DNA of 64,000 nt from NCBI GenBank assembly GCA_039707465.1, contig CM077643.1, positions 329,037,419 to 329,101,418 of the forward strand, read 5' to 3'. The stretch comes from Rhabdophis nuchalis (taxonomy: Eukaryota; Chordata; Lepidosauria; Squamata; Natricidae). This document shows, piece by piece, positions 1,387 to 58,700 of the stretch (position 1 is its first letter; every line of letters begins with the position of its first letter). The notes beneath the pieces were generated by a model. That model had not been told where the DNA came from, searched no databases, and worked only from the letters and a program-made list of their open reading frames with translations. A program made the position numbers and the translations under genes.

Positions 1387-29487
<28,101 letters not shown>

Positions 29488-30543: not shown

Positions 30544-31377
30544 TCACCCCCCCATAGCCAGCGATGGAACCAGCTGACTGTAACGGGATGCCGGGAACCA
30601 CAGCCACTCGGTCTTGGAGGGGTTGAGCCTGAGCCTGTTCCTCCCCATCCAGATCCGCACAGCCTCCAGGCACTGGGACATCACATCAAGGGCAACATTG
30701 GGGTGGTCTGGGGACGAAATGTACAGCTGCATATCATCAGCGTACTGATGGAACTTTACCCCAAAACCCCAGATGATGTCGCCCAGTGGCTTCACATAAA
30801 TGTTGAACAGAAGGGGCGAGGGGACTGACCCCTGGGGCACTCCACAAGTGAGGCACCTTGAAGATGACCTCTGCCCCCCCGTCAACACAAACTGCAAACG
30901 GTCAGAGAGGAAGGAGGAGAACCACCGAAGTACAGTGCCCCCAACCCCTAACTCCTCCAACCACCACAGCATGATACCATGGTCGATGGTATCAAAAGCC
31001 ACTGAGAGGTCTAATAGGACCAGGACAGAGGAGCAACCCCTGTCCCGAGCCCTCCAGAGATCATCGACCAATGCAACCAATGCCGTTTCCGTGCTGTACC
31101 CAGGCCTGAAACCCGACTGGTACGGATCAAGATAGACCGCTTCATCCAGGTACCTGGGAAGCTGTTGCGCCACCACACTATCAACAACCTTTGCCACAAA
31201 GCGAAGGTTGGAGACTGGATGATAGTTTGCTAAAAGCGCCGGGTCCAGGGAAGGCTTCTTAAGGAGGGGCCTCACCACCAGCTTTTTCAACGCAGTGAGG
31301 AAGAAACCCTCTCTCAAAGAAGCGTTGATAATACCCTGGAGCCAGCCTTGTGTAACCTCCCGAGTGGCCAGCACCAA
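30544..31377 (-). pseudogene. L2 reverse transcriptase, broken
   Basis: RT domain of the minus-strand L2, 277 open codons with GVPQGSV and YADD motifs. Both ends are cut by frame breaks relative to the endonuclease and C-terminal pieces. Confidence 0.85.
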
Positions 31378-33793: not shown

Positions 33794-34285
33794 GTGAGAT
33801 GGGGCCTAGGGAGGCAGTTGGGCGTGTTAGTTGTATACCTGGCTCCTCGCTATGCAACAACAGCCCTGCCCGAGCTCCTAGAGGTGATAGCCGAGGCGGC
33901 AGTTGAGACCCCCAGACTGGTAGTCATGGGGGACTTTAACTTGCTGTCGGCAGGCGAAGCCTCTGGAGCAGCTCGGGAGTTCATGGCCTCCATGACGGCC
34001 ATGGACCTGACCCAGGTAGTTTTAGGCCCCACTCATGAGGGGGGAAACACACTGGATCTCATCTTTGTCTCGGGACAGTGGAGTTGTGATCTGGGAATAG
34101 GGGACTTAGCCATCACTCCCTTGTCATGGACAGATCACGCTCTCCTTCGGCTGGACTTTCCAATCGCTACACCTCACCGCGGGGAAGCGGAACCGGATAT
34201 TCCTATATGGTTCCGCCCCAGGCTTCTAATGGACCCGGAAAGGTTCCAGAGGGAGCTTGGGCCAATTCCTCGACTGAGGACCTAG
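33794..34285 (+). pseudogene. L2 endonuclease domain, partial
   Basis: Contains VVMGDFNLLSAGEA, NTLDLIFVSGQWS and SWTDHALLRLDF (T-D-H where S-D-H is usual). It leaves frame near 34270, before the linker. Confidence 0.85.
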
Positions 34286-35919
34286 TGGCCGCATGGTTAA
34301 GTGCGGCCGTGGGGGCCTTGGACCGAGTCGCGCCCTTGCGGCCTCTCTTGCGGCGACGAATCACCCAGGCTCCTTGGTTTACCGAGGAGCTTCGGGGGAT
34401 GAAACGCCACAAGAGACGCCTAGAGAGCAGATGGAGATCCTCTCGCTCCGAAGCCGACCGAACACTAGTGAGAACCCATATTAGGGCTTACTTAGTGGCG
34501 ATAAGGGTGGCCAAACGTGAGTATTGTGCCACCCTTATTGCATCCGCAGATAACCGCCCTGCCGCCCTGTTTGGGGTGACCCGCTCCCTCCTTCATCAGA
34601 GGCCGCGGGAAGCCCCTCTGCAAGGGCGAGCAGAGGAATTTGGGATTTATCTGCAGGAGAAAATCACTCGGATTCGGAATGAGCTACCCTCCATCGACAG
34701 TGGTCCTGTGGGACTGTCCAAGACTAGTCTTGAGGTTCCTTCTTGGGAGGAGTTTGACTTTGTTACCACCGAGGATATGGACAGGTTGTCAAAGAAACTT
34801 AGGGCGACCACATGTTTATTGGACCCGTGTCCCTCCTGGCTTGTACTGGCATCCTGGGAGACGACACGAGGCTGGCTCCAGGGCATTGTCAACGCATCTT
34901 TGAGTGAGGGGTCCTTGCCTGCCGTCTTGAAAGAGGCGGTAGTGAGGCCCCTCCTCAAAAAGCCGTCCCTGGACCCAGCTTTATTAGAGAACTATCGTCC
35001 GGTCTCCAACCTTCACTTTTTGGTGAAGGTTGTCGAGAGTGTGGTAGCCCAACAGTTTCCGCGACACCTGGAGGAAGTTGATTATCTAGACCCGCGCCAG
35101 TCCGGCTTCCGACCCGGTCACAGCACCGAGACGGCATTGGTCGCGTTGGTTAATGATCTCTGGAGGGCGCGGGATAGAGGTTATTCCTCTATCCTAGTCC
35201 TATTAGACCTCTCGGCGGCTTTTGATACCATCGACCATGGTATCCTATTGCACCGACTGGGGGGGTTGGGGCTGGGAGGCACCGTTTTGCGGTGGTTCTC
35301 ATCCTACCTCTCTGGTCGGTCGCAATATGTGTTGACGGGAGGGCAGAGGTCGACCTCGAGGCCTCTCTTATGTGGGGTTCCTCAGGGGTCAGTTCTCTCG
35401 CCCCTCCTTTTCAACACATATATGAAGCCGCTGGGTGAGATCATCCATGGTTTTGGGGTGGAGTACCACCTGTACGCTGATGACACCCAGCTGTACATAT
35501 CCACCCCAAACCACCCCAACGATGCCGCCGAAGTGCTGTCCCGGTGTTTGGAGGCCGTACGGATCTGGATGGGTGGTAACAAACTCAAGCTCAACCCTGC
35601 CAAGACTGAGTGGCTGTGGTTTCCGGCACCCCAGTTCAGCCAGATTACTCCAACTCTGGCCATTGGGGGCGAAACACTGGCCCCCGTGGAGAGGGCGCGC
35701 AATTTGGGTGTCCTCCTGGATTCCCGGCTGTCCATGGAGGACCATGTGGCGGCCGTGGCCAGGGGGGCATTTCATCAGGTACGCCTGATGCGCCAATTGC
35801 GCCCCTTACTGGACCGGGCTGCCCTTCGCACAGTCACTCAAGCTCTTGTGATGTCCCGACTCGACTACTGTAATGCTCTCTACATGGGGCTTCCCTTGAG
35901 GTGCACTCAAAAGCTATAG
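34262..35919 (+). pseudogene. L2 reverse transcriptase with premature stop
   Basis: Meaningful L2 coding starts near 34262 (the open frame itself begins at 34126). It has [84 protein letters not shown] and catalytic [10 protein letters not shown]. It stops at TAG 35917-35919 where the family continues, and the C-terminal block resumes at about 36000 in another frame. Confidence 0.88.
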
Positions 35920-50900: not shown

Positions 50901-53900
50901 AATATTTTAATATAATTTGACAATTATAATGTATTTTGGGATAAGTTGCTATCGCCGACAATGATTTCATAGTCAAGGAAGTTAATGTCAAATTTGCTAC
51001 TGCTTGATACACACACACATAACACAAATACATACACATACATAAACATATAGATAGACACACAAACACAAATACACATACGTAAACATATAGATACACA
51101 CACACACTTGCCTGTTAAAAATTCTGAGTCAAATTAAATAGTCCCTCCTTTCATTTATGTATGTGCTAGATTTCTCCTTAAAAACCCTCTTTAGTGATAC
51201 CTGTAGAAAGACAATTATATTACACATTGGCTCAAAACCCAGTTGTGCATCAATTTTAGTTGTCCTTATTGAAAAAAAGAGGAACACTTCTGTCTTTAGG
51301 ATACTCTGTACAATACGAAATAACCTTTCTCATAACCCAGATGTTCTAGATTTTCTTCATGCAAAGTCCAAAGCACTGATATGTAGATTCATAAAGGTTT
51401 TGGCTTGGATATTAACTTTCTTTCTGAACATCTGTTTCTAAGATCATTAGGGAATGATACAATAGAAGGACAGATGATTATGGAAATTGTCCCCTGATGT
51501 GACTAAAGGGATTATTTATAAGCTAAGCACTTGTGTTTGCTATTACTCATGAACACTGATTGCTTTCCTAACAGATCATTGGAAAAATGGGACAATATTT
51601 AAAAATGAATATTTCAGTATCTGAAGAATACATACAAGGATTTATTCGGGCTAATAATACTTTCCTCTATCAGTTGGTTTTTGACCCAGTCAGAAGGAAA
51701 CTTGTTCCTCTGAATGCTTACGAAGATGATATTGAGCCAGAAACTCTAGTTTACGCTGGAAAGTATCCTTTATCAAATAAAAATGTAATATACTTAGAGG
51801 GCATAAAAATGTCACCATCAACTTGTTTCTATGTTAGTTCTTAAAATCCTTAAGCACTGGTATTGCAAAAAAGGAATTGTTTCTAGATCAATTGCTATTT
51901 AGTTTATGTTGATCCCCTTCAGAATAGTATTAAGCTTGAATAAATAGTAATTTTTTTCAAATAATATAAGCCATTGGAGGAGGCCTCACTTTTCATAATC
52001 TCATTGAAACCTCCTGGAAAATGAAGTTGGGATTAGGCTACATGCAGCCTTAATCCCTCAGATAGCTATTAAGTTATTTAAGTTTATATCTACTTAAAAC
52101 AAAGGGCAAATTTTGTATTTCATATGTTGTAAAACTGCATGAACATTTTTATGTGAACTGTGCAGAGTTATGAACTCCATAAAATGAAACTATATACAAA
52201 AGAAAGTTCTAATTAAAAGTGGCACTTTTTCTGAGATTGATTCATTTAGATACTTTGATGATCGGACTGCTTTTCAAATTGCACTTGGAAATAAAGATAT
52301 TTTCACAATGGAGCGAATTGATGACTATGATCCTGATGTATCACCGGTAATACTTTGTATCTAAAAAATATTTTAATTATCAAGAACATTTTTGTCCTTG
52401 TGTTTTTGCTTGAGTTTGAACTCAGATTTAGATAAATCTGAAGTATATAGTTATACATTTTATGCCAGGATTTGATACATTATACTAAAAATCCTGTATC
52501 AAAACTACAATTATAGCTGATATATTAGTTAACAACCACTCGGAGGCACTACAAACTAATTTTGTCCTATTGAGTCTCTTCAGGCATATGCTAAATATTC
52601 TGTATTCAACACTTTAATATGATTTGAATTGACAGGACTTGCTTGTTACATTAGATTTGACTTCATAAGTATCTTGTATTGGCTATCAACAACTTGTAGG
52701 GAAGGAAGTTTTATAGATGCTATGCTGATAAGCCTCCGCCCCTTTTTTAAAGTCTTATATTGGATAATTTTCTGATTTTGTTGGATTAGTCCTCATGATT
52801 TTTCAGAAATCATGGAAGATTAACTTAGTGGCATAGAGAATTGAAGAAGGACATTTGTTCCTATTTTAAAAAATAGGAAAAAGACTCACAATTTCAGTCA
52901 ATTTATATTGATACAAGCAAAACTCCAAGAGAGATAATTAAGCAGTCAGTTTAGAAAATTGTTTTGAAAAAAACTGTGACTTTATTAGGAATAATTATGT
53001 CAAGCCAACTTGATTTCCTTTTTATTTATAATATCAGGGGGTAGCTCATTCCAGAGGGTTGGGCCCACCACAGAGAAGGCCCTTCCCCTGGACGTCGCCC
53101 GCTGGCATTGCCTGGTGGACGGCACCCGGAGAAGTCCCTCTCTGTGGGAGCGAATCGGTCGAAGGGATGTATGGGGCAGGATGCGATCCCGCAGATAGCT
53201 AGGTCCCGTGCCATGGAGCGCTTTAAAGATGGTAACCAATACCTTGAAGCGCACCCGAAAGGCCACAGGCAGCCAGTGCAGCTCACGCAGGAGTGGTGTT
53301 ACGTGGGAAAACCTAGAGGTTTCCAAAACTACCCGCGCGGCTGCATTCTGGACAAGCTGTAGTCTTCGGGTGCACCTCAAGGGGAGCCCCATGTAGAGAG
53401 CATTGCAGTAGTCCAGACGGGATGTCACGAGTGCATGAGTGACTGTGCGCAAGGCGTCCCGGTCCAATAAGGGCCGCAACTGATGTACCAGGCGAACCTG
53501 GTAGAACGCCCCCCTGTCCTCGGCTGTCACTTGCTCTTCCATGGACAGGCGGGTATCAAGGAGGACGCCCAAGTTGCGTGCCCTATCCACGGGGCTAGAT
53601 TTTCGCCCCCTATGGCCAGCGATGGAACAAACTGGTTGAACCGAGGCGCCGGAAACCACAGCCACTCGGTCTTGGACGGGTTGAGTCTGAGTCTGTTCCT
53701 TCCCATCCAGACCCGCACGGCTTCCAGACATCCGGACATCACTTCGACGGCATCGTTGGGGTGGTTTGGGGTGGATATGTACAGCTGAGTGTCGTCAGCG
53801 TACAGATGGTACTCCACCCCAAAACCACGGATGATCTCACCCAGCGGCTTCATATATGTGTTGAACAGGAGCGGCGAGAGGACCAACCCCTGAGGCACCC

Positions 53901-55059
53901 CACAAGTACATCATCTGGCCAGTACATCATCTGGAAAAATTAAAGCTATTGCATAAGTAAAGTCATTATCACATAGGCAGCTGCATTTCAAGAGTTCCCA
54001 ACCAGAAAGGTGTTAAAGCATATATGAGTTGAAAAAATTATAACAGTCAATCTTTTCAATAGGCTTGATCACTGTTCTAGGTTCCTTTTGTTCAGTATCC
54101 AATAGCAAGGTACCAAAACATGATTGAGAAAATTCTAAAATGGTAATAAAATTAACTTCAGTGTAATTTGGAAAAACAGAGTAATATAACTTTATGTTTT
54201 TCTTTCTGTTCTTTTGGTATAGCCTGTACTACCAAGAAGCCGCAGCTGGGATGCCACTTGTACTCATGAGAAATCACCGTATTTAAAGAGCATTTGGAGC
54301 AGGGACTACAAACCCTGTGTTACTGCAAAAATTGTCACAAATTCAACACCTTTGCTAGAGAAATCCCCTACCCGAGGAGTTGAGCAGCTAATTAACTTAA
54401 AAGGACTCAAATTTCCTAGCAAAATGCTAGTGGCAAAAAGACCAAGGCATGGTATGATTGCTACATTTTTAAACACGCACGCACACGCACACACACTGTA
54501 TGTGACCAGAACCTACACACACACACACACACACACAAATATATATATATACATACATACATACATACATACATACATACATACATACACATACATATAT
54601 ATATATATAGAGAGAGAGAGAGAGGGAGGGAGGGGGGCGGGTAGGTTCTGGTTTACACATACATACATATATATATGTAATTGTTTCCACAACAACCTGT
54701 TAATAGGTCCCAATTAAGGGAGGAGACATACTGTTTCCTTTCCTGCCTTTCGGCTCATCACCAGAGACCATCTAGACAGCAAGCCAAGAATTACGTTGTG
54801 TAATATATATTTTTTTAGATATGTGTGTTAGTTTTTATGAGCTGATCAATAAATTAAATTAGAGAGACCAGGATAGATCTATTTCGAGCTTATTAGCTCT
54901 CATCAGCTGGCCATACCCTTTACTGGGATTCGAACCGGGGCTGTATTGCATGCCAGGCAAGGAGCCTAGCACTTCAGCCAAGCCCCTTACTGCATCAGCT
55001 GAGACAGGGTATATTTAGATACAGTATGTGTCTTAGTTTTTATGAGCTGATCAATAAAT

Positions 55060-55090
<31 letters not shown>

Positions 55091-55741
55091 TAGTTTTATG
55101 AGCTGATCAATAAATTAAATTAGAAGAGACCAGGATAGATCTATTTCGAGCTTGTTAGCTCTCATCAGCTGTGAAACAATTACATATATATGTTAGATTT
55201 TAAGGGCTGAAAATAAAGAGACCAGGATGGATCCATTTCAGGCTTATTAGCCTTCTTCAGCTGGCCATACTCCTTCTACTGGGATTTGAACCAGGGCTTT
55301 AACAAGGAGTATGGCCAGCTGAAGAAGGCTAATAAGCCTGAAATGGATCCATCCTGGTCTCTTTATTTTCAGCCCTTAAAAATCTAACACATATCTAAAA
55401 AATGTCACACAGCAGTAATCTAATTTGGTTCTCTGTCTGGATGACTCTGGGTTGAGTCGAAGGGCAGAGAGGGATGACGTTGAGTCTCCTCCCCTTAAAG
55501 GGACCTCTGAACAGGAGCTGTGATAATTATTCTTCATATATATATATACGTTTCGACAAGATCTCACTTGTCATCATCAGGCAGGCTTGTGTCTGTGAGT
55601 GACACTCACAGACACAAGCCTGCCTGATGATGACAAGTGAGATCTTGTCGAAACGTTGCAACAACTTTTCTATGCCTTATACACGGGAAAATCCCCGAAG
55701 CCAGCTATGCCAGCATACCTACACCCGTGAAAATCTACGAA

Positions 55742-55773
<32 letters not shown>

Positions 55774-58700
55774 ATTAAGGGAGGAGACATGCTGTTTCCC
55801 TCTCTGCCTGTCGGCTCATCATCAGAGACCATCTAGACAGAGAACCATTTTTTAGTTACATTGTGTAATATTTTTAGATATGTGTTAGTTTTTATGAGCT
55901 GATCAATTAATTTAAATTTTGAGAGACCAAGATAGTTCTATTTCGAGCTTATTAGCTCTCATCAGTTGGCCACACCCCACTGGGATTCGAACCGGGGCTG
56001 TAATGAATCCAAGGCAGAAGCCTAGTACTCCAGCCTAATCGGTTCTACCCTGTTTCATCAGCTAATCCAGGAGTATTTAGTATAGATAATTGTTTCCACA
56101 TATTCCCCATATTCCACATATATATGTAAATCTTGAATGCTCAATACAATGGTTAGGAAATATAAGCATTTACCCACAGCCTCTTTCTTAATTCCTTATA
56201 TTTCTTTTCTATATATCACCCAAAGGTATTACTAACAGAACACATGTTAAAACAAACATAATTTGTTTATTTCTTTTAACTTTTCCATATACAACTATAG
56301 TATTTGTCTACTCTATTAATATCAATATATTAAAAATGCTGATGTAGATCTAGTATAATTGAACTTAATTCATCTTTTATATATTTAGAAGAAGCATCAG
56401 AAGAACAACTGTTAAGCCAGTATTTTTCTGACTCAAAAAAAAACAAAACAGAAATATGTGATGAGAAGCAGCAACTTTTTAGTGGAACATCTGCAGTCTG
56501 TACTTCCCAGGACTCATGCAAAAATAAGGATAATTCTTGTATTCAGCCCAGGCTTAGAAATAAATTTGCCACTATTTTTCAAAAGGAAAATGAAAACAAT
56601 GGTGCAGTGGTTGTTCCGGGAACTAGAAGCAGGTATGTGTCTTTAAATTGCATTCCTACAATTTTAGTATTTTTTTTTAAAAAAACAGCAAAGCAATATT
56701 TTTTTTAAAAAAAACCTTAAACACTATCAGTAGAATCAGATAGTATAATTTGGACTACCCAATATATTGTAATATATAATTAATATCACAACTACTTTAT
56801 TCAATATAGAGCTTTCCAGGTGAGACTGCTGGCTGATAATTCTGGGAATTGCAGTGTCTACATCAGTGTTTCTCTACCTTGGCAACTTTAAGGTGTGTAG
56901 ATTTCACCTCCCAAAATTCTCTAGCCAGTAAGCTGGGGAATTCTGGGAATTGATGTCCACAAACCTTAAAGTTGCCAAATTTGAAGAACATTCGTCTACA
57001 TAATTAGACTTATAGGGTGTTTTTTTGCCCTCCAGAGCCTTCAGGGAAGCCTCCTGAAGGCTCCGTCGGGCTAAAATCTGCCCTACGAGCAAACCAGAAG
57101 TCCGTTCCCAAACTTCCAGCTGTACAGCTGGTTTTTTGGCGCCCTGTAGGCTTCAGGGAAGCTCCAGAGGCCTCTGGGGGTACAGGGGAGGCTGTTTTCG
57201 CCTCCTCGTGCTCCTATAAAGCCTCTGCAGCCCGGGAAGGATGAAAAAAGCATTCCAAAAATGGGGAGCACTGGTCATGTGCGCATGCGTGCTGGGGTCG
57301 TGTGCATAGCATTATGGGTGTGGCATTCCCGTGCACGACCCCCCCCTGGGCTCCCCCCTCTTGGCACGCGAACCGAAAAAGTTTCGCCATCACTGGTCTA
57401 GAGGTTGTTATAATTCACTTCTAATTATTTCAGCATATGTCCAGAATTTTAACATACAGTCATAATTTCTTTTCAGTAATACTGCAACATTTTAACATGA
57501 TCAGATTAATGCACACATCTTTTTATATTATCTCTCATTTCCTCCTGTACTCACTCAATGTATGTTAGGTTTTTCTGCAACATTGGAGATCTGCCTGAGA
57601 CTATATCAAAGAACAAAACTGACCCGCCTCTACGGGACAATGAGGCGGATAGTCCAACCAAGGATATAAAGAAATTATCAGAAGACCACAGTCCCTGTTC
57701 ATCGGAGACTGGAGAAATAGAAAGAAATGTCTCAACCACACCTGGAGTAGGACAGTCCAGCTGTTTCACTTGGTCTAGAAGCTTTGCAGAAAAATCTTCA
57801 ACTCCTAGCCTATCACAATGCATAGCACTGCTAAAGCAGTATCAAAGACCCAGTAAAGACACAGGGAAAGACTATAGTGGGCCTGGCTCACAAATAACCT
57901 CACCAGCAAATAAAGAGTCTGATGGAGAGTCATCACCTTTAAAAGAACAGCGGTGTTCATCAAAACAGAATCTTGACAAGCTGTTGCAAAGCAAGGAGGA
58001 TATCTCAGAAGAGTCCCCAGTGAGCAAGAAAAATGCTGCTCCTGCCAAAGTAAGATTATTCTATGTTTTAGTTAAGCAGTTTATTAAATTGTCATGGCAT
58101 TCTCAAGGGATTGTCCAAATCTGTTCTTATGTGTTGCAATACTTATTATTATTATTATTATTTATTATTTATAAAATTTATATAACCGCACCCTCTCCCC
58201 GAAGGGACCCGGGGCGGTGCACAGGAAATTTAAAACAACACAAATACAAAGTATAAATAATTAATATCGAATTAAATAGTTTATCCCTGTGCTAAAATTT
58301 AAATAGTTAAGACATAATCCCTTACAAACCCAATTAACAATTTATAATACAGACTGCAGACTAGGTAAATAACTTAGGCCAAACCGGCCTGATGGAACAG
58401 GAGTGTCTTTAATTTCTGGCGGAAGGTGCGGAGGTCCGTGGTTGTTCTGAGGTCGGAGGGTAGGTCGTTCCAGAGGGTTGGGCCCACCACAGAGAAGGCT
58501 CTCCATTTATAAAATAACTTCTGTGTATGAAACCTCAAAGTCTGCCTGCCTGCCTGCCTGATAATCTGTGTATTGCTGTAAACTAATACATTTTAATTTG
58601 ATTAACTGTTAAGAGTGTCGGAACGTGTTAAGCTATGAGATATCTTCATTTTCTAATAGACATTCCAATATATATCATCATTGTTTTTAATAGGGCTGAT

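Follow-up and report, generated by a model that had tools for sequence, protein, structure and literature searches.

A candidate retroelement with a tRNA-like head and a hammerhead motif in an insertion nest of an EXO1 intron of Rhabdophis nuchalis

An intron of EXO1 in Rhabdophis nuchalis raises the question of what kind of repeat would carry a self-cleaving RNA motif behind a tRNA-like segment, and of how such a repeat would move. The DNA analyzed here is a stretch of 64 kb of contig CM077643.1 (assembly GCA_039707465.1), called the window in the following, and the repeats in question form a nest that spans about 54.68 to 56.08 kb of it. We call the repeated unit element E. We think it probable that E is a non-coding retroelement, non-autonomous and about 310-345 nt long, with a guanine-cytosine (GC) content of 41-42%, for which a cycle involving RNA polymerase III (Pol III), a hammerhead ribozyme and a Penelope helper can be proposed. 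The host gene had been named as EXO1 in an earlier note on this DNA, and this is borne out by the first exon, 57 amino acids of which match Exonuclease 1 chains of the PDB with an E-value of 1e-29. The exon beyond the nest, read at about 56390, is presumably part of EXO1 as well.

Five segments of 47 nt in the nest contain the complete core of a type I hammerhead, as the earlier note had claimed, and this observation is confirmed as real. A strict type I descriptor was applied to both strands of the window, which asks for CTGANGA, GAAA and H17, for 4 bp or more in stem II, and for 3 bp or more in stems I and III, with A15.1-U16.1 among the pairs of stem III. It gave exactly five matches, against none in 60 dinucleotide shuffles. 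The CUGANGA/GAAA core, the three helices, the open stem I and H17 are found in all five segments, of which H1, H2, H3 and H5 are antisense to EXO1 and H4 is sense:

54866-54912, minus strand: hammerhead H1, a 47-mer with 15 of 15 pairs; matches Rfam HH9 at 32.8 bits, below the gathering score.
55128-55174, minus strand: hammerhead H2, a 47-mer with 12 of 15 pairs; matches Rfam HH9 at 33.2 bits, below the gathering score.
55220-55266, minus strand: hammerhead H3, a 47-mer that matches the descriptor, without a match to an Rfam hammerhead.
55313-55359, plus strand: hammerhead H4, a 47-mer identical to H3, likewise without a match to an Rfam hammerhead.
55925-55971, minus strand: hammerhead H5, a 47-mer with 15 of 15 pairs, its stem I compensated with respect to H1; matches Rfam HH9 at 28.5 bits, below the gathering score.

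The matches to HH9 (RF02275) have E-values of 5.8e-6 for H2, 7.5e-6 for H1 and 1.9e-4 for H5 in a search of 2201 bases. The gathering score of this family is 52 bits, a curation threshold that does not define the chemistry, and no segment anywhere in the window reaches an Rfam gathering score. In H2, stem I is reduced to 3 bp. H3 and H4 have the same sequence and lie in the two arms of a perfect palindrome, so that the motifs amount to four independent ones at most, and the reading of them as five independent motifs does not hold.

The differences between the copies fall mostly in pairs. H1 and H3 differ at 7 of the 47 sites, six of which form three compensated pairs (two in stem II and one in stem III), while the seventh is N7, the free position of the core and the only place where the cores differ. 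Between H1 and H5 there are three differences, including one compensated pair, G-C to A-U in stem I, and one loop site. The four differences between H1 and H2 are three uncompensated stem I sites at the truncation of H2 and one loop site. All the paired changes in stems I, II and III that the earlier note had listed were thus verified. With changes placed at random, the probability of keeping all 15 pairs and the core would be 0.0003 for the seven changes of H1/H3, 0.026 for the three of H1/H5 and 0.00002 for the ten of H5/H3. In an alignment of four sequences, a small sample in which H3 and H4 are counted once, 95% of the cells pair, and four pairs are changed on both sides; only 1 of 500 shuffles scores as high, and six slid versions of the alignment give 0. 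Moreover, the hammerhead is better conserved between the two longest copies of the element, E1 and E5 (44 of 47 sites), than the head (85 of 99 aligned sites, with 17 gap columns) and the tail (132 of 145 aligned sites, with 54 gap columns). This pattern supports the hammerheads being under structural constraint.

The copies of E in which the hammerheads lie are the following, with outer ends chosen by us:

54675-55018, minus strand: element E1, with tRNA-like head, H1 and an AT-rich tail running into a TA/TG-rich tract; 80% identical to E5; GC 0.419.
55065-55174, minus strand: element E2, a truncated copy whose upstream end lies 3 nt from the CUGANGA core; holds H2.
55185-55303, minus strand: element E3, with a B-box relic and H3; left arm of the palindrome.
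55304-55547, plus strand: element E4, a fold-back copy of E3 with H4, followed by a longer tail.
55772-56080, minus strand: element E5, with a head containing an exact B box and a degenerate A box, and H5; its tail is cut at AATT beside a Poseidon-like fragment.

E1 and E5, whose identity was measured over 321 columns, share the same layout from 5' to 3', namely the tRNA-like head, the hammerhead and the AT-rich tail. As delimited by us, they measure 344 and 309 nt, and with a GC content of 0.42 and 0.41 and no coding capacity they fit the metazoan retrozymes of the kind without long terminal repeats (LTRs), which are 170-400 nt long, low in GC and without a protein-coding region. The stop-to-stop frames across the copies are mostly of 56-77 amino acids; the longest, of 164 amino acids, runs through neighbouring microsatellites and overlaps only the end of E1. 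E2 and E1 stand head-to-tail with a partial unit between them, and the remaining copies are truncated or inverted. E3 and E4 form an inverted repeat of 78 nt that is 100% complementary (55198-55275 and 55304-55381), and in the EXO1 pre-mRNA H4 is therefore expected to be masked by pairing with the adjacent arm over these 78 nt.

Two further details of the longest copies can be mentioned here. The first half of a hammerhead core, AGCTGATG(A), stands near the 5' end of both, at 54993-55000 and 56055-56063 on the minus strand, as though another hammerhead had formerly been attached to the unit. Their tails share a conserved segment with the hammerhead-like letters CTGATGATGAGCC..GAAAC (55825, minus strand, in E5, and the matching place in E1). 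As a hammerhead it was rejected by eye, stem II not closing next to GAAA; it is possibly a decayed second ribozyme.

What precedes the hammerhead is the second part of the question. A promoter-like arrangement is clearest in E1:

54926-54980, minus strand: Pol III-like promoter of E1, with A box TGGCTGAAGTG and B box GGTTCGAATCC, 44 nt from start to start, as tRNA positions 8 and 52.

An A box and a B box at this tRNA spacing occur once in the window, in E1, and in none of 100 shuffles. The exact B box is present three times, with 0.05 expected, at E1, at E5 and in a short interspersed nuclear element (SINE) at 16.2 kb; loose boxes carry little meaning, a relaxed form, GWTCRANNC, being found 20 times in the window. 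The claim that both boxes precede H1 and H5 stands for H1, while H5 follows an exact B box and its degenerate A box was rejected as a consensus match. The B-box relic announced before H3 is there, read with one mismatch. The linkage of the tRNA-like segment to the hammerhead is supported within the nest as well, for the head is found in all three copies that extend upstream (E1, E5 and, in part, E3); of the other two, E2 breaks off 3 nt ahead of the core, and E4 derives from E3 by fold-back. In tRNA numbering, the head of E1 has T8, T33, an anticodon GGC, A37 and 4 of 5 anticodon-stem pairs. Overall it is tRNA-like and promoter-like, and not a tRNA. Since TTTT is absent from the sense strands of E1 and E5, transcription by Pol III could extend through the ribozyme into the tail; E3 and E4 have one TTTT each right after the hammerhead.

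The SINE at 16.2 kb, at about 16100-16300 on the minus strand, has a tRNA-related head with its exact B box at 16216-16226, and we take its body to be of the squamate Sauria/Squam1 kind.

The third part of the question concerns the enzyme that would move such a unit. Between E4 and E5 lies an element of another type, with two further hammerhead cores that the earlier note does not mention:

55548-55745, plus strand: Poseidon-like Penelope terminus, a perfect 54-nt head-to-head palindrome with a minimal core CTGATGATGACAAG..CTTGTCGAAACGT in each arm; the right copy runs to an AC-rich end.

Helix III of these cores is too short for the strict type I descriptor. The copy on the plus strand has an ATG that begins with A9 of the core; counted in the frame of this ATG, the unique sequence passes into a CA repeat at +111 to +118. 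In Poseidon of Anolis (PAc), the open reading frame (ORF) begins at stem II, after G8, and reverse transcription starts 111-118 nt into it, in an AC-rich stem loop; the enzyme cuts and extends both strands and targets AT-rich DNA (PMC11167929). The terminus in the window is thus a close fit to the layout of PAc, in a comparison of features described in text and not of letters. In our numbering U16.1 is the last base of the palindrome arm, and the predicted cut site lies one base further on.

E and the Poseidon-like type have several traits in common. Each contains a perfect inverted duplication in head-to-head orientation, of 78 nt in E and of 54 nt in the Poseidon-like type, and each terminates in a tract rich in AT or CA. 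As we read the letters, helix III of the type I core is tiny and palindromic in the two of them. A single enzyme that extends both strands would account for palindromes of this sort. The two palindromes were also considered as microRNA precursors, given matches below gathering to Rfam mir-600, MIR7533 and others, and this was rejected, as long perfect hairpins score without kinship.

From these elements a cycle can be proposed. Pol III would start at the tRNA-like head and read through the hammerhead into the tail. The transcripts, probably of tandem or partial tandem copies, would then pair via the palindromic helix III and cleave as dimers. Helix III consists of A15.1-U16.1 and two or three pairs around GAUC or AU, and its arm is wholly palindromic in H1, H2 and H3, while one change breaks the palindrome in H5; on predicted folds we consider cleavage as dimers likely. 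The freed units, possibly circularized first by a host ligase, would act as templates and would be reverse transcribed and inserted in trans. The leading candidate for the helper is a Penelope-like element of the Poseidon kind, on account of the Poseidon-like terminus in the same nest, with its ATG at A9 and its end at +111 to +118 as in PAc. Penelope elements have also been named as the likely helper of retrozymes (PMC7229834; this source, like PMC2770079, PMC6155905, PMC7761336, PMC8490949 and PMC10702118 below, is represented here by part of its text).

A number of results weigh against this proposal. The predicted minimum free energy (MFE) structure of the monomer is not the hammerhead for H1, H2, H3 or H5, nor for 70-nt versions of H1, H3 and H5. 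The double hammerhead is the MFE structure of the homodimers of H1 (-35.0 kcal/mol) and H3 (-39.2 kcal/mol), a result that is suggestive only, since the same happens in 71 of 300 control hammerheads with random helices; it is not the MFE structure of the H2 or H5 homodimers, and for the H1/H3 heterodimer it lies 1 kcal/mol above it. Further pair types in the alignment are no more frequent than by chance, all 500 shuffles reaching that count. H3 and H4 match no Rfam hammerhead model at E-values up to 10. The head of E1 forms 0 of 7 acceptor pairs, 2 of 4 D pairs and 3 of 5 T pairs. Its MFE structure is a different, long hairpin; a full tRNA fold was rejected, and neither ARAGORN nor Rfam reports a tRNA. 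On the side of the helper, a 65-nt fold of the Poseidon-like core shows stem II and no complete hammerhead, either as monomer or as dimer, and self-comparison finds only simple repeats in common between E and the Poseidon-like fragment. In PAc itself, hammerhead mutants still inserted in vitro, cleavage by the hammerhead required added protein, and RNA-seq gave no reads with a start or an end at the cut site (PMC11167929).

Other retroelement remains lie elsewhere in the window:

30547-31377, minus strand: LINE-like fragment (long interspersed nuclear element) with an RVT_1 domain, E 1.2e-31.
34093-35916, plus strand: LINE-like fragment with an RVT_1 domain, E 6.8e-36.
53003-53794, minus strand: fragment without a Pfam match that by eye resembles the two before it.

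All three are, we assume, CR1/L2-like.

Other explanations have to be weighed against a mobile unit with a cycle of its own. It is unlikely, in our opinion, that E represents a pseudo-LTR that belongs to a second Penelope-like element, an autonomous one, in which the tRNA-like letters would be chance or a captured promoter and the hammerhead would serve the Penelope cycle directly. Penelope elements do bear minimal type I hammerheads, in tandem in axolotl (PMC7229834), and form tandem pseudo-LTRs (PMC11167929), and the copies of E are partly tandem, truncated and inverted. However, an ATG at A9 is present in the Poseidon-like hammerhead and absent from that of E, and the size of the unit and the A and B boxes at tRNA spacing suit a SINE-like element. 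In addition, neither a Penelope reverse transcriptase nor an ORF combining one with GIY-YIG was recognised among the seven ORFs scanned, and the two RVT_1 matches, at 30-36 kb, fall in ORFs that we take to be CR1/L2-like LINEs. A simple-repeat tail and a tRNA-related head are usual in squamate SINEs (PMC10702118), and LINE-like reverse transcriptase fragments are present within the window, so one could also regard E as an ordinary tRNA SINE mobilized by a LINE, with the hammerhead as a functionless passenger relic. The differences between H1 and H3 in the 47 nt, however, are all either compensated or located at N7, a pattern that speaks for selection on the fold during the active life of the lineages, and we judge the idea of a relic very improbable.

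The copies might also descend from one insertion that was duplicated locally, in which case they would not be independent and the family might be confined to the EXO1 locus. There are only four distinct copies, all inside about 1.4 kb, and H3/H4 is plainly a local fold-back. A model built from the four distinct copies recovers the five motifs and no convincing sixth in the window, the next match having 15.7 bits and an E-value of 0.068; a degenerate 28-base hammerhead pattern gave no matches in viral and prokaryotic contig collections, which is uninformative on the size of the family. On the other hand, the divergence among the tails of E1, E4 and E5 amounts to 9-17% of the aligned sites, and yet their hammerheads keep 15 of 15 pairs, and separate active lineages fit this better than decay after local duplication. 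We therefore regard a purely local origin as improbable, and continue with E as a non-autonomous retroelement.

If E is indeed an amniote ribozyme SINE, it would make two questions accessible to study, namely by which enzyme retrozymes are mobilized and whether their RNA is made by Pol III, and it would bear on the origin of the conserved intronic hammerheads. Two kinds of hammerhead elements in one nest, each with a perfect palindrome, make the idea of a Penelope helper directly testable. One can go further and regard E as a living amniote retrozyme, tRNA-headed, driven by Pol III, cleaving as a dimer and mobilized by a Poseidon-type Penelope, and such elements as the mobile source of domesticated amniote intronic hammerheads such as HH9; we think that this wider proposal is tentative and, as a whole, rather unlikely.

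How does E compare with the systems already known? The earlier note knew of no described squamate SINE with this layout. The layout itself cannot be called new, since a SINE that derives from tRNA-Gln and contains a hammerhead is known from Schistosoma as Sm-alpha (PMC2770079); what stands is that no squamate case was found in the open-licence literature searched. Sm-alpha and Sj-alpha are, like E, short SINE-like retroposons with a type I hammerhead (PMC2770079, PMC8490949), but they belong to hosts of another phylum, and they are likened to E by description and not by sequence. The metazoan non-LTR retrozymes of coral, mussel and axolotl share with E a unit of about 170-400 nt, low GC and a type I hammerhead, and HHR_Amex1 of axolotl shares the weak helix III with a palindromic tetraloop (PMC7229834). 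In that axolotl hammerhead helix III has a single pair, and dimeric constructs cleave far better (PMC7229834). These retrozymes are tandem, whereas the copies of E are truncated and inverted without a clean tandem array, and in the part of the account drawn on here neither a tRNA-like head nor a Pol III promoter is mentioned (PMC7229834). The animal retrozymes on record are those of invertebrates and amphibians, and the hammerheads of mammals, human included, are described as isolated motifs and not tandem ones (PMC7229834); a search for terms in that paper returned no reptile, snake or Anolis.

The minimal hammerheads of Penelope, represented by PAc, lie beside a pseudo-LTR and resemble that of E in being of type I with a tiny helix III (PMC11167929); they differ in that no ORF begins at A9 in E, where no reverse transcriptase was detected either. 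HH9 has CAGCUGAUGAG, CGAAA and UCCUG in common with H1, H2 and H5. However, the intronic amniote hammerheads are conserved single copies, and E is a repeat with a tRNA-like head that scores below the gathering threshold of HH9. These intronic motifs include that of DTNB in birds and reptiles, and their domestication from retroelements has already been proposed (PMC6155905). The squamate SINEs Squam1-3 have, like E, a tRNA-related head and a simple-repeat tail, and their 3' region is derived from a LINE (PMC10702118), unlike what we describe for E; the words ribozyme and hammerhead are absent from the main text of that paper. A review has considered that retrozymes could count as a novel SINE family (PMC7761336).

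In the open-licence literature, with closed-access papers and repeat databases outside its scope, no retrozyme of a squamate or other amniote was found, and hammerhead ribozymes together with Anolis led to PAc only. The combination of a tRNA-like start signal with a self-cleaving RNA is thus known from blood flukes, and appears to be new for reptiles in the literature searched. The nearest relatives of E would be the non-LTR retrozymes of animals and the Sm-alpha SINE of Schistosoma.

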